Source of the DNA: Acidaminococcales bacterium
Lineage (GTDB): Bacteria > Bacillota > Negativicutes > Acidaminococcales > JAISLQ01
DNA: 33,054 nt
NCBI GenBank assembly: GCA_031290885.1
Contig: JAISLQ010000007.1
Span: 1-33,054, forward strand
Reading direction: 5' to 3'
A program made the position numbers and the translations under genes. Positions 28,269 to 33,054 of this stretch are shown here, piece after piece. Numbering within the stretch: the stretch's first letter is position 1; each line of letters opens with the position of its first letter. The notes under the pieces are model-generated. The model had not been told where the DNA came from. It was given only the letters and a program-made list of their open reading frames with translations, and searched no databases.

Positions 28269-30434
28269 TCAAACCCGATCTTCTTCCAGATAATTGTTTT
28301 CCTCTTTCTTGTAAAGCGGCCGCATTTTTTGCTGCAATGAAGGCTGGCCGCTTTGCGCGTATTCGCAGGCTGAACGATAAAGTTCCGCCTGCGCGTCAAT
28401 TTGGGGCGGGCGGCTGCCAAACCGCCGGTATGTGCCGTTGCTGCCCATAGTGTAAGCCTTGACGTTGTCTTTAAGATAAACGTCCAGTATGTTTTTAATC
28501 CTTTCGATATGTTCGCCCCTTTCGACCGGGAAAAGCAGTTCCACCCTGTCGTTAAGGTTTCTTTCCATCCAGTCCGCGCTGGAAAGGTACACTTCTTCTT
28601 CGCCGCCGTTGAAGAAATAAAATATCCGCGTATGTTCAAGATAGCGGCCGACAATGCTGCGGACGGCGATGTTTTCGCTTACGTTCTGCTTGCCGCCGAT
28701 AAGACCGCAAATCCCCCGCACTATGAGGTCGATCCTTACGCCGGCGTGGGACGCTTCGTAAAGCTTTAAGATCATGTCTCGGTCGATCAAGGAATTCATT
28801 TTGGCAATGATGCGTCCTGTTCCGCCATTTTTGGCAATGGCGATTTCGTTGTTGATAAGCTTATAAAACTTTTCCCGGAGACCAATGGGAGCCATGGCAA
28901 GTTTGTCCAAAAGCGGAGGCTCCGAGTAACCTGACAGCACATTGAAGAAAGCCGAGGCGTCCGCGCCTATTTGCTCGTTGGAGGTGATTATGCCCATATC
29001 GGTATACAAGGCGGCGGTATTGTCGTTGTAGTTGCCTGTGCCCAGGTGCACGTAGCGTTTAATCCGGCCGTTTTCCAGCCGGACGATCAAAATGATCTTG
29101 GAATGGGTTTTCAGTCCGACCAGGCCGTATATGACGTGGCAGCCTGATTTTTCCAGCCGCTTGGCCCAGGTTATATTATTTTCTTCGTCAAATCGTGCCT
29201 TTAGCTCTACCAGCACCGTTACCTGCTTGCCGTTTTCCGCGGCTCGCGCCAAAGCGTCCACTATGGGGGAATTGCCGCTAACCCGGTAAAGGGTCTGTTT
29301 TATTGCCAGCACCTCCGGATCCTCGGCCGCGTTGCACACCAATTTGACCAGCGGCTCGAAAGATTCAAAAGGATGGTGAAGCATGATGTCTTTTTCCTTT
29401 GCCAAAGCCAGAATGTCATCGCAGCATAGAAGGTCGGCCGGCGTTTGGGGAGGCTGCGGCGCATTGCAAAGGGACGCGAAATCGGGCATGTTCGCCAACT
29501 TGAAAAAACAAGTAAGATCAAGCGGCCCGTTTATTTCATATATGTCGCTTTTGTCCAGCGACAGATTTTTCTTTAAAAAAATTATTATTTCATCGTCGTC
29601 GGCGGCATTGACTTCCAAACGCACCACGTCGCCGCGGCTGCGTTTGCGCAAGGAGCGCTCGACTTCTTTCAGCAAGTCGTCCGTGTCAATGTCGTCAATA
29701 TAAAGGTCGGCGTTCCTGGTTATGCGAAAAGGCAGAACCGTTTTTATCTTATGGCCCGGGAAAAGCGCCTGGCAATATTGCATAATCAACTCTTCCAGGA
29801 AGACGAAAACGCGGCCGCTGTCGTTTGTTTTTACTTCCAGAAGGCGCGGCAGCACGGACGGCACCTGTACAAAGGCGATATGCTTGTGTTCGCTTTTATC
29901 GTTTTTATTTTCCTGAAAAGTTACCGCCAGATTGACGCTGCGGTTGGCCAGGAAAGGGAACGGCCTGCTGGCGTCCACCGCCATGGGCGTCAAAACAGGA
30001 AAAACCGTGTTGTTGAAATACTGGCGTAGCCATTCCCCGCCCTCCGGGGAAAGATCGCCCGTGCGGGCGATAATTATGCCGTGATTGCGCAATTCTTTAA
30101 TGAGCGGGAACAGATACTTATAAAATGTTTTCATCATCTTGTGCGTGGCAGCCGATACTTTGTCAAACTGAGCCGTTGCCGTAAGGCCCGCCGGGTCGCG
30201 CCCTTGGTAGCCGCTTTCCAGAAGGTCTATCAAATTGGCTACCCGCACCATGAAAAACTCGTCAAGGTTTGCGGCGGCGATACTGATAAAGCGCAGGCGC
30301 TCCAATAAAGGAAGTTCCCTCACGGTAGATTCGTTCAGGACCCGGGCGTTGAATTTCAGCCAGCTTAGCTCCCGGTTTATGAAGTTCTCCGGCATATTGA
30401 ATTTGCTTTTGCTCAAGGGGGCATATTTCGGCAT
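28269..30434 (-). CDS. ppk: Polyphosphate kinase, PPK1 family
   Basis: Reversible synthesis of inorganic polyphosphate from ATP through a phospho-histidine. 721 residues. N-terminal domain begins FINRELSWLKFNARVLNES; head domain follows with SIAAANLDEFFMVRVANL; the catalytic half contains HHPFESFEPLVKLV, TLYRVSGNSPIVDAL, KARFDEENNITWAKRLE, the phospho-acceptor His in GLKTHSKI, YVHLGTGNYNDNTA, and RYLEHTRIFYF with the second conserved His. The ATG at 30434 has GAGGT 7 bases upstream; ATGs at 30452 and 30461 overlap the previous gene without ribosome sites. Starts 10 bases after the Ppx/GppA-HD gene, so they form an operon. Confidence 0.96.
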   Translation of the reverse strand: MPKYAPLSKSKFNMPENFINRELSWLKFNARVLNESTVRELPLLERLRFISIAAANLDEFFMVRVANLIDLLESGYQGRDPAGLTATAQFDKVSAATHKMMKTFYKYLFPLIKELRNHGIIIARTGDLSPEGGEWLRQYFNNTVFPVLTPMAVDASRPFPFLANRSVNLAVTFQENKNDKSEHKHIAFVQVPSVLPRLLEVKTNDSGRVFVFLEELIMQYCQALFPGHKIKTVLPFRITRNADLYIDDIDTDDLLKEVERSLRKRSRGDVVRLEVNAADDDEIIIFLKKNLSLDKSDIYEINGPLDLTCFFKLANMPDFASLCNAPQPPQTPADLLCCDDILALAKEKDIMLHHPFESFEPLVKLVCNAAEDPEVLAIKQTLYRVSGNSPIVDALARAAENGKQVTVLVELKARFDEENNITWAKRLEKSGCHVIYGLVGLKTHSKIILIVRLENGRIKRYVHLGTGNYNDNTAALYTDMGIITSNEQIGADASAFFNVLSGYSEPPLLDKLAMAPIGLREKFYKLINNEIAIAKNGGTGRIIAKMNSLIDRDMILKLYEASHAGVRIDLIVRGICGLIGGKQNVSENIAVRSIVGRYLEHTRIFYFFNGGEEEVYLSSADWMERNLNDRVELLFPVERGEHIERIKNILDVYLKDNVKAYTMGSNGTYRRFGSRPPQIDAQAELYRSACEYAQSGQPSLQQKMRPLYKKEENNYLEEDRV

Positions 30435-30444
30435 TTTCTTTACC

Positions 30445-31998
30445 TCAACCATCCATTTCAAGCAAAACCGGCTTCAGGCCGAAAACTTCTTCAAACGCGG
30501 CGCTTTTGTCCTCAATCGTCCAGCGTTCCAGCGACATATCCTGGCCGGCCTTTACTATTATTTGCATTTCATCGCCTTTTAAAGATATTTTGCATTGAGC
30601 GGCCTTTTGTCTGTAACTGCGATCCAGCGCGTCCGCGATGCGCAAAATAGCCGACAGTTTGGCGACTATCGGCATGAGGTCGCGTTTTGGCCCGGCCATG
30701 CCTTCCATTGGTTTGGAGAAAAGGTCTTTGGCGTGATAATAAACTATGTAGGCGACCAGCTGTTTTTCTTCGTCGCTCAACCCAAATATGTCAGTGGACA
30801 AAATCAGCCTGTATGAATAAAAATAATGCTGCCGGAGATTGACGAATTTCCCTATGTCGTGGAGAATCGACGCTATTTGCAGAATAAGCCTGTGCCGGTC
30901 GGAAAATCTATAAGGCTTTCGCATACGCGCAAAAATCTGCTCCGAGAGTCTGGCGACTTGTTTGGCGTGCGCGCTTTGGTAGTTGTAATGTTTGGCGATG
31001 TTGCCGACAAAATTTACTATTTCAGCATCAAGCTCGCGCAGCCACTCATGGTTTTTCTCCCTGGCTATGTACAAAACGACCATGGCGTCAATAAAACTGT
31101 CGGGGGGGACGACTATTTCCTGAACCGAGGTCAGGGCGATGAGCTGCTGATAAAAAATAATCGTGGGCAGGACAATTTCCGCGACCTGTTCGCTCAGGGC
31201 AAATTCGTGCATTATTTTTGCCAGCTTCATATCAATTACGCGCTGGTAAAGCGCTTCGAAAAGACTGGTCGGCAAAATGGCGACTTTGTCTTTCAGATCT
31301 TTTTTGCCCAGCATGTTCAGCAGCAGGGAGGTATTTGTCCCCGACAGCACGATCCTTTGAATGTTGAAGTTTTGCAGATTGTCATGGACCGGCGAAACAA
31401 TGCTGTTCAGATATTCCGTCAGGGACGTATTGAAAGCGGCGGTGGAACGCTGCTTTTTGTCAAAACTTTCCTTTACGCGGATAACGCCGATATGTATGTT
31501 CTGCTGATATTTTATCTCGCCGTTTTCCACCATGGTAATGCCCAGGCCGCCCGAGGAAATATCCGCGAACAGCGTGGCCGAACCGTCGGCGCCGATGCCC
31601 GCTTTTTTCAGCGTCCTGGCGATGGAGATATATTTGTAATATATTTCCAAAGGCATGTCAATGACTTCCACTTTGAGCCCTGTCGCCATCAATATCTGAT
31701 CGATCATGAAAACGCGGTTGCGCGCTTCGCGCATGGCGGTAGTTCCAATAAGAAAATAGTTTTCCACGCCGTATTCTTTCATCAGGCGTTTGTAATTGTT
31801 GAGAATTTCGCAAAGTTCCCTGACCAAAACCAAAGAAACCATGCCGGTTTTAAATGTTTCTTCGCCTATCCTTACCCGCTGCTCGGCAAAATCCAGAACT
31901 TTTATGTATTCAAGCGAGCGGTACTCTACAATTTTCAAACTTACTTTTTCCGATCCCAAATGAATCGCGGCAAAAATGTCCGCCGCTTTTTTACTCAT
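30445..31998 (-). CDS. Ppx/GppA-like protein with HD domain, degenerate N-terminal catalytic motifs
   Basis: 517 residues. Residues 1-300 have the ASKHA layout of exopolyphosphatase/guanosine pentaphosphatase, but key motifs are changed: the family DxGSNSxRL reads AIHLGSEKVSL (12-21 region), and the D-x-GGGS loop reads FADISSGGLGI (144-153). The second gene at 32237 keeps both canonical forms. The C-terminal part is an HD domain with its expected ligands: His344 (SAHAKQVARLSEQIF), HD at 380-381 (ILHDIGKFVN) and Asp in RIADALDRSY. So the HD phosphohydrolase site looks intact while the Ppx site may be inactive or altered. AGAGGTG lies about 7-9 bases before ATG. First gene of the operon with ppk. 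A regulatory role for Ppk or polyphosphate is inference. Confidence 0.85.
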   Translation of the reverse strand: MSKKAADIFAAIHLGSEKVSLKIVEYRSLEYIKVLDFAEQRVRIGEETFKTGMVSLVLVRELCEILNNYKRLMKEYGVENYFLIGTTAMREARNRVFMIDQILMATGLKVEVIDMPLEIYYKYISIARTLKKAGIGADGSATLFADISSGGLGITMVENGEIKYQQNIHIGVIRVKESFDKKQRSTAAFNTSLTEYLNSIVSPVHDNLQNFNIQRIVLSGTNTSLLLNMLGKKDLKDKVAILPTSLFEALYQRVIDMKLAKIMHEFALSEQVAEIVLPTIIFYQQLIALTSVQEIVVPPDSFIDAMVVLYIAREKNHEWLRELDAEIVNFVGNIAKHYNYQSAHAKQVARLSEQIFARMRKPYRFSDRHRLILQIASILHDIGKFVNLRQHYFYSYRLILSTDIFGLSDEEKQLVAYIVYYHAKDLFSKPMEGMAGPKRDLMPIVAKLSAILRIADALDRSYRQKAAQCKISLKGDEMQIIVKAGQDMSLERWTIEDKSAAFEEVFGLKPVLLEMDG

Positions 31999-32236
31999 GG
32001 CCAGTCACCTCTGGCGCCGCGCAAAACGGCTTCATTTCCCAATATAGTTTTTATTCTACACAAAAAGCCGAATCCCTGCCGTAAAAAATGGCAAAGATGC
32101 CTTGCCCTTTTAGGCGGCGTTGGCCTTTTGGGCCGCGTGCAGAAGAAACAGTTTTTTTATTGCCATTTTTGTGCTATTGTTAAAAAGGAACGCCGGCCAA
32201 GCCAAATACCTGAAAAGAGCATCCCGGAGGAAAAGC

Positions 32237-33054
32237 ATGCAACGCGTAGGCATAATCGATCTTGGCTCAAACGCCGCCCGATTGGTAATTGTGCACATCC
32301 ATGAAGACAACTCGCACTATTTAATTTACGCGCAAAGGAGTTCCCTGCGCCTGAGCCAGCGTATCAATAAAAACGACGAGATTACGGCGGACGCGGTCAA
32401 AGACATACTTGACGCGATCCATAAATTTCGCCACATGTGCGTATTGTTTCAAACGACAAAAATTATCGGGGCGGCTACCGCCGCCATGCGCGGCGCCAAA
32501 AACGGCAATGAAATCATAAACCTGATAAAAAAAGAAACCGGGCTGGAGATAGACATCATCAGCGGCGAAACCGAGGCCTATTACGGCTATCTGGGCGTCG
32601 TCAACACCATTGACGAAAAAAACGCCGTGCTTTTTGATTTGGGCGGCGGCAGCATAGAGCTCGCGCTCATACGCGACCGCCGCGCGGAACATTTGGTCAG
32701 CCTGAACATTGGCACGACGAACATGACCGAAAAATTCAAGATTTCCGACAAGATGCCCAGCAAGACTTTTCGGGAGATAACTGCGTATATCGGGCAAAAA
32801 ATAAAAAAATCCTTTCCCTGGCTGAAAAATTCCAAACTGCCGATCATCGGCATAGGCGGCACCGTGCGTAACGTCGCCAAGATATATCAACGGCGCGTAA
32901 ATTACAGTTACCCGAAACTGCACAATTATCGCCTGAACAATGCCCAGTTTAACGAGGTGTTCAATATCCTGCGCAATACCAGCTGCGAACAAAGAAAAAA
33001 AATACCCGGTCTCAACAGCGAACGCGCCGATATCATTTTGGCCGGCGAGATCGG
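32237..33054 (+). CDS. Exopolyphosphatase/guanosine pentaphosphatase, Ppx/GppA family (cut at window end)
   Basis: 272 codons are visible with no stop. Canonical ASKHA motifs: GIIDLGSNAARLVIV at residues 5-19, AATAAMRGAKNG, IISGETEAYYGYLG (with the catalytic-type Glu), VLFDLGGGSIELALI, LNIGTTNMTEKF and IIGIGGTVRNVAKI, then GLNSERADIILAGE. It should hydrolyse polyphosphate ends or pppGpp. CGGAGG lies 6 bases before the ATG. It is transcribed away from the Ppx-HD/ppk operon across a 238-base gap in which I saw a weak hairpin (GGCAA...TTGCC near 32091) and no clear consensus promoter. Whether it also carries an HD domain cannot be seen. Confidence 0.92.
   Translation, partial: MQRVGIIDLGSNAARLVIVHIHEDNSHYLIYAQRSSLRLSQRINKNDEITADAVKDILDAIHKFRHMCVLFQTTKIIGAATAAMRGAKNGNEIINLIKKETGLEIDIISGETEAYYGYLGVVNTIDEKNAVLFDLGGGSIELALIRDRRAEHLVSLNIGTTNMTEKFKISDKMPSKTFREITAYIGQKIKKSFPWLKNSKLPIIGIGGTVRNVAKIYQRRVNYSYPKLHNYRLNNAQFNEVFNILRNTSCEQRKKIPGLNSERADIILAGEI

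Follow-up and report, generated by a model that had tools for sequence, protein, structure and literature searches.

A ppk-linked Ppx/GppA homologue with a rewritten active site in Negativicutes: a candidate partner of polyphosphate kinase 1

The window analysed here, a stretch of 33,054 nucleotides, is the complete contig C7 (G000:C7) of a 2.13-Mb draft genome of an Acidaminococcales bacterium. At one end it carries ppk, the gene for polyphosphate kinase 1 (PPK1), together with two genes for Ppx/GppA homologues, one of which (A) lies upstream of ppk on the same strand while the other (B) is divergently oriented (Table 1). The first-pass annotation of this DNA had read the arrangement as a division of labour between one true phosphatase and one sensor or HD-dependent hydrolase, and had raised the possibility of a dedicated regulator of Ppk. 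The switching of bacterial PPK1 is poorly understood.

Table 1. Features of the ppk locus, in positions of the window.
Feature	Position	Strand	Remarks
ppk, polyphosphate kinase 1	28269..30434	-	start 10 nt beyond the A stop
A, Ppx/GppA homologue whose active site is rewritten	30445..31998	-	P0001; 517 aa; stop codon counted
A residues 331-485, Ppx/GppA domain III, HD-like	30544..31008	-	H344, H380-D381, D456, D459
A residues 146-153 (DISSGGLG), phosphate-2 loop	31540..31563	-	canonical D-x-G-G-G-S-x-E
A E118, equivalent of catalytic E121 of E. coli Ppx	31645..31647	-	retained
A residues 13-17 (HLGSE), phosphate-1 loop	31948..31962	-	canonical Ppx D-x-G-S-N
Divergent intergenic region, A-ppk versus B	31999..32236	.	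238 bp
B, N-terminal 272 aa of a canonical long-form Ppx/GppA	32237..33054	+	cut by the contig end

Two long-form Ppx/GppA homologues and ppk

Pfam profile searches matched A to PF02541 (66.3 bits, cut-off 27), to the Ppx-GppA_III profile PF21447 (69.7 bits, cut-off 27.3) and to the HD profile PF01966 (28.7 bits, cut-off 22). With the ASKHA domain and domain III both above their gathering scores, A is on profile evidence a Ppx/GppA homologue of the long form. It scores below the NCBIfam cut-offs for exo_poly_only (101.2, cut-off 307), Ppx (49.5, cut-off 864) and GppA (58.6, cut-off 624), which long-form Bacillota Ppx may also miss, the truncated B giving 250.8. The top PDB matches of an AlphaFold model of A (mean pLDDT 92.7, pTM 0.89) were all Ppx/GppA proteins (Foldseek E 4e-26 to 1e-20, probability 1.00). 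The ASKHA part of the model matched short, single-domain Ppx structures with TM 0.73-0.84, and the whole chain gave a high rmsd against several full-length Ppx structures, from which the modelled domain arrangement probably differs. Orthologues of A at 30-51% identity are found throughout the Negativicutes.

B gave a strong Ppx-GppA match. As had been noted at first pass, its visible Ppx motifs are kept, with one exception: DLGSNAAR has Ala in place of the usual second Ser of DLGSNS. The rest of B, an open fragment of 255 aa, lies at one end of contig C2 (L003 883-1650, minus strand) and covers the final part of Ppx-GppA followed by Ppx-GppA_III with HD-like motifs. The ends of C7 and C2 (L003 1599-1652) share a 54-nt overlap that contains 5 mismatches, which suggests strain variation or a break in the assembly within ppx gene B. 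In G001, a genome of the same genus, a single uninterrupted protein encoded next to A aligns with both parts (243/270 and 220/255 residues identical), and relatives in the order have a B of about 500 aa at the same place. The reading of B as a short Ppx without HD was ruled out as a contig-end artefact, domain III being encoded on C2. Because full-length B also has this domain, the HD fusion that had been taken as the distinguishing feature of A does not set it apart; the predicted architecture of both proteins is that of a long-form Ppx, in which an HD-like domain III is the ordinary arrangement common to A, B and the solved structures. A further Ppx candidate on contig C12 was rejected as an MreB-like ASKHA protein.

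The ppk product matched NF003920 with 946.8 bits (cut-off 935). PPK1 is complete, and the E. coli PPK positions checked are all conserved, including H435, H454 and H592. A and ppk are co-oriented in 60/60 scored loci, and in these pairs the closest Met preceding the PPK motif lies mostly between -10 and +7 nt from the A stop, which suggests that the two genes are translationally coupled. Open frames of 1183-1230 aa in three genomes had the appearance of A-PPK fusions; these were ruled out, the genes being separate. A stop codon divides A from ppk in G148 (L087), A and ppk occupy two separate frames in G121 (L113), and the long frame of G036 runs over the antisense sequence of B. In the divergent intergenic region neither a sigma-70-type promoter nor any Rfam family was matched, and an RNA element reading was dropped. 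The leader of the A-ppk operon contains a hairpin resembling a terminator, with a T run after it (32106-32090, minus strand). A conserved leader terminator was ruled out, similar hairpins being present in only 6/49 relatives.

The active site of A compared with that of B

Protein A has IHLGSEKVS where the DxGSNSxR of motif 1 is expected, and DISSGGLG where the DxGGGSxE of motif 2 is expected. In E. coli numbering, D17, N21, G145, G146, S148, E150, T219 and R267 are all replaced in the window protein. The loss of DxGSNSxR- and DxGGGS-type residues described at first pass is confirmed for most of the site but not for all of it, as the general-base Glu E121, its partner Arg R93 and D143 are kept.

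An alignment was made of 64 A orthologues, 67 B orthologues and the E. coli proteins Ppx and GppA. In the A proteins D17 has become His (61/64), G146 Ser (64/64), S148 Gly (57) and E150 Gly (59/64); N21 is replaced by Glu, Ser or Val and G145 by Ser or Thr, T219 has mostly become Glu, and the R267 position shows no conservation. E121 and D143 are each kept in 62/64. The catalytic positions of the 67 aligned B proteins are invariant wherever the sequence covers them. At the four catalytic acids D17, E121, D143 and E150 the window A reads H, E, D and G, and all four are kept in 0/77 A-family proteins versus 66/66 Negativicutes B proteins. The losses differ by lineage: the pattern is H-E-D-G in Negativicutes, D-E-N/S-E in the f45/f85 lineages, where D143N or D143S accompanies loops of GMGG type, and D-E-D/N-Q or D-Q-D-Q in the class of G318, where E150Q, seen in five A-family members, is combined with changes at N21. 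Glu at the T219 position recurs in 9/12 non-Negativicutes A proteins.

At first pass it had been stated that dispensable changed residues would count against the reading. The evidence does not show them to be dispensable: besides being intact in every Negativicutes B scored, the acids are needed in D. radiodurans Ppx, where the mutants D7A, E143A, E114A and D136A reduce kcat/Km from 2.28 to 0.04-0.1 (PMC11234463 Table 2), the values for alanine at the equivalents of D17, E121, D143 and E150 being 0.05, 0.05, 0.1 and 0.04 (PMC11234463). Because mutation of the equivalent acids has this effect, it is very unlikely that A carries out ordinary Ppx catalysis. The D. radiodurans enzyme also contacts polyphosphate through N11, S12 and H14, and since the equivalent positions of A are replaced it is doubtful that polyphosphate itself would be bound in the A cleft.

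Negativicutes A retains E118, R90 and D146, and some residual or altered catalysis is for this reason conceivable. These three residues, the His that replaces the Mg-binding Asp and the very strong conservation of the altered cleft would all be compatible with a Ppx-like hydrolase or phosphotransferase whose chemistry or substrate has changed. We regard such an enzyme as decidedly improbable, as Negativicutes A has neither the Mg-binding D17 nor the water-binding E150, and Ala at either equivalent in D. radiodurans leaves about 2% of kcat/Km; moreover, the acids lost differ by lineage, which fits a loss of catalysis better than one new scheme.

The pocket columns (HxGS, DI[ST]SGGxG) are nevertheless among the most conserved of Negativicutes A. 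An alignment of 38 A orthologues has 21 invariant columns, including H13, G15, E118, D146, S149 and G220. On average the pocket columns lie at the 89th conservation percentile, a value equalled by 0/100,000 random column sets, and the H13 column is in the 99th percentile. Because the altered cleft ranks among the most conserved parts of the protein, its rewriting, as judged from these alignments, is not simple decay. That A is a functionless duplicate decaying in the manner of a pseudogene is hardly credible: lost catalytic residues and a divergence greater than that of B are what decay would produce, but the open frames are intact in nearly all relatives, the invariant residues are kept class-wide and the operon position persists, so that the idea is contradicted by conservation.

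Five long Ppx proteins of canonical type from outside the Negativicutes (L239, L243, L245, L246 and L247) have Lys in place of E150, with no ppk in the stretch fetched, and perhaps form another non-standard Ppx group. Loss of E150 by itself is accordingly not unique to A among the aligned sequences.

Distribution of A and its linkage to ppk

Our survey of the class covered 161 genomes of at least 95% completeness, with E <= 1e-40 as the threshold for A (G044, in which a contig end truncates A, was also counted as positive). A and ppk occurred together in 104 genomes, ppk only in 23, neither in 34 and A only in 0. A is present in 104/127 ppk-positive versus 0/34 ppk-negative genomes (Fisher 6e-20, a value that ignores shared ancestry, the genomes being sampled species and not independent events), and it adjoins ppk in the loci read. 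The genetic linkage of A to ppk is obligate in the genomes surveyed, and this dependence, with no A-only genome, suggests a dedicated regulator. The Ppk-linked role that had earlier been a possibility is much better supported by these counts and by the way in which A abuts or overlaps the ppk start.

The 23 ppk-only genomes include losses of A in at least four lineages, with B abutting ppk in some of them, and also genomes with a different, short ppx-ppk pair. PPK1 can function in the absence of A, as ppk is retained without it in at least four lineages.

Of 200 sampled Bacillota genomes, 31 had ppk, and all 6 A genomes were among those 31. Three non-Negativicutes genomes of this sample encode A-type proteins, two targeted searches added more, and every non-Negativicutes A is directly upstream of a ppk match. 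A family confined to Negativicutes, which a scan of named genomes with one motif pattern had indicated, was ruled out by this phylum search. An unrooted, long-branched tree of 86 proteins (48 A rows) is divided by one branch, with an SH-aLRT of 100, into the A family and the remaining proteins. Two strongly diverged selenomonad sequences were omitted from this tree; in another analysis they grouped with A. By these searches the family spans the Negativicutes, is sporadic in other Bacillota and lies directly upstream of ppk. Conservation of an A-ppk pair across Negativicutes, which the first pass had suggested checking, is borne out by a clade found with ppk in which none of the 77 members scored keeps the four acids; the acids lost differ between lineages, H-E-D-G being the Negativicutes pattern. 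The family is homologous to known Ppx/GppA proteins, and no description of its ppk-tied, catalytically altered clade was found in the openly available papers searched.

Two selenomonad loci (L096 2867-4537 and L097 3018-4571) encode an extremely diverged A-like protein directly upstream of ppk, with the changes D17Y, E121I and D143S/Y. In L096 the PF02541 match is gone and the domain III match remains.

The gene neighbourhoods also bear on whether A might be a dead-paralogue partner of B, forming a hetero-oligomer that tunes the exopolyphosphatase and not the kinase. A and B have a fold in common and their genes are usually divergent or in tandem, and there is a precedent in the trypanosome AdoMetDC prozyme, a dead paralogue that activates the live one (PMC5201418). 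A partnership of this kind is nevertheless quite improbable: the A-ppk loci L060, L087, L113 and L234 have no adjacent full-length B in the stretch fetched, the absence of any A genome without ppk ties A to ppk and not to B, and B persists without A and, in G163 (L103), without ppk.

Domain III and a putative role beside PPK1

The full HD triad reported for the window A (H344, H380-D381 and D456) is indeed present. Across the alignments it is complete in 34/65 Negativicutes A and 6/12 other A proteins versus 1/67 B proteins, the latter keeping H-HD with the last Asp changed to Glu in 64/67. The triad is complete in most A proteins of Phascolarctobacterium type and Sporomusa type, whereas a Mitsuokella-type genome has it partly altered and Veillonella, like some related lineages, has it destroyed. 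In Veillonella the key HD positions of A read C/S/E/A and C/R, with cleft and gene order retained.

The HD set of the window A, which scores above the Pfam HD cut-off, the above-average conservation of the HD core (permutation p 9e-4) and the difference from B in triad counts would suit an active HD-domain, metal-dependent phosphohydrolase gated by the dead Ppx part as its sensor. We consider this unlikely for A, given that the triad is incomplete in half of the family, that the Veillonella HD is broken though cleft and gene order are kept, and that the HD-broken proteins L078 and L092 gave no HD match when scanned with Pfam. Since 31/65 Negativicutes A proteins lack the complete triad, HD catalysis does not appear to be the shared function of A, and it may persist in the lineage of the window. 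Of the division of labour proposed at first pass, HD-dependent hydrolysis as a general function is weakened by these incomplete and destroyed triads, and the remainder stands in qualified form: B is probably the true phosphatase, and A, coupled to ppk, is probably not a polyphosphatase.

Short proteins encoded near long-form Ppx genes in three loci (L232 3075-3656, L242 2797-3645 and L249 2831-3472, all minus strand) match only the HD-like C-terminal part of Ppx profiles, with a complete H-HD-D set.

We put at about an even chance the reading in which A is a non-hydrolysing, Ppx-like sensor or regulatory partner dedicated to PPK1, with B as the working exopolyphosphatase. Somewhat more tentatively, the A family as a whole may consist of pseudo-exopolyphosphatases that serve as dedicated regulatory or sensing subunits of PPK1 in Negativicutes and other Bacillota, the Ppx cleft having become a ligand-sensing pocket. 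A would be made in step with PPK1, and its actin-like cleft and C-terminal domains would bind a phosphate-rich ligand without hydrolysing it, candidates being a polyphosphate end, a nucleotide or an alarmone. The bound state would then set the activity, chain length or placement of PPK1, and hydrolysis would be left to the intact long-form Ppx B. Domains 3 and 4 of E. coli Ppx can bind polyphosphate in the absence of domains 1 and 2 (PMC5025862).

Our search of open-access literature, outside which most subscription papers lie, gave no description of a Ppk-linked Ppx pseudoenzyme. The A family would be a specific candidate for a PPK1 switch encoded beside ppk in gut, rumen and oral bacteria, its hosts including Phascolarctobacterium, Veillonella and Dialister. 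An "exopolyphosphatase" annotated next to ppk in these bacteria may not mean polyphosphate degradation, and models of polyphosphate turnover built on such annotations could err. The clade is also a natural series of active-site losses that may help to separate binding from catalysis in the Ppx/GppA fold.

A shares the multi-domain fold of the long-form enzymes of E. coli (1U6Z), H. pylori (6PC0-6PC3) and D. radiodurans (8JGO), that is, ASKHA domains with an HD-like domain III, and in Negativicutes it keeps E121, R93 and D143. It differs from them in its low identity (14-18% over the structure alignment), in the replacement of Mg-binding D17 and in its place in a dedicated ppk-coupled operon. 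Yeast Rtg2p, a Ppx-like signalling protein with Gln at the E150 position (PMC5417653), is comparable as a Ppx-derived ASKHA protein with a signalling role (in the retrograde response) and has the same Gln as A of the G318 class, whereas Negativicutes A has Gly there; unlike A, it is eukaryotic, unlinked to a polyphosphate kinase gene and keeps other site residues. The AdoMetDC prozyme resembles the role proposed for A in that a catalytically dead paralogue regulates an enzyme, but the prozyme acts on its own paralogue, whereas the proposed target of A, PPK1, belongs to the same pathway without being related to A.

As in the ppk-ppx pair of E. coli, a Ppx-family gene lies beside ppk on one strand. 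In E. coli, however, ppx follows ppk and its product is an active enzyme, whereas A is an altered paralogue upstream of ppk, usually with a second, intact ppx alongside. The converse of A is seen in two loci from other Bacillota (L237 3899-7566 and L251 3466-7088), where the Ppx that overlaps ppk, in the same gene order, has an intact catalytic site and a broken HD.
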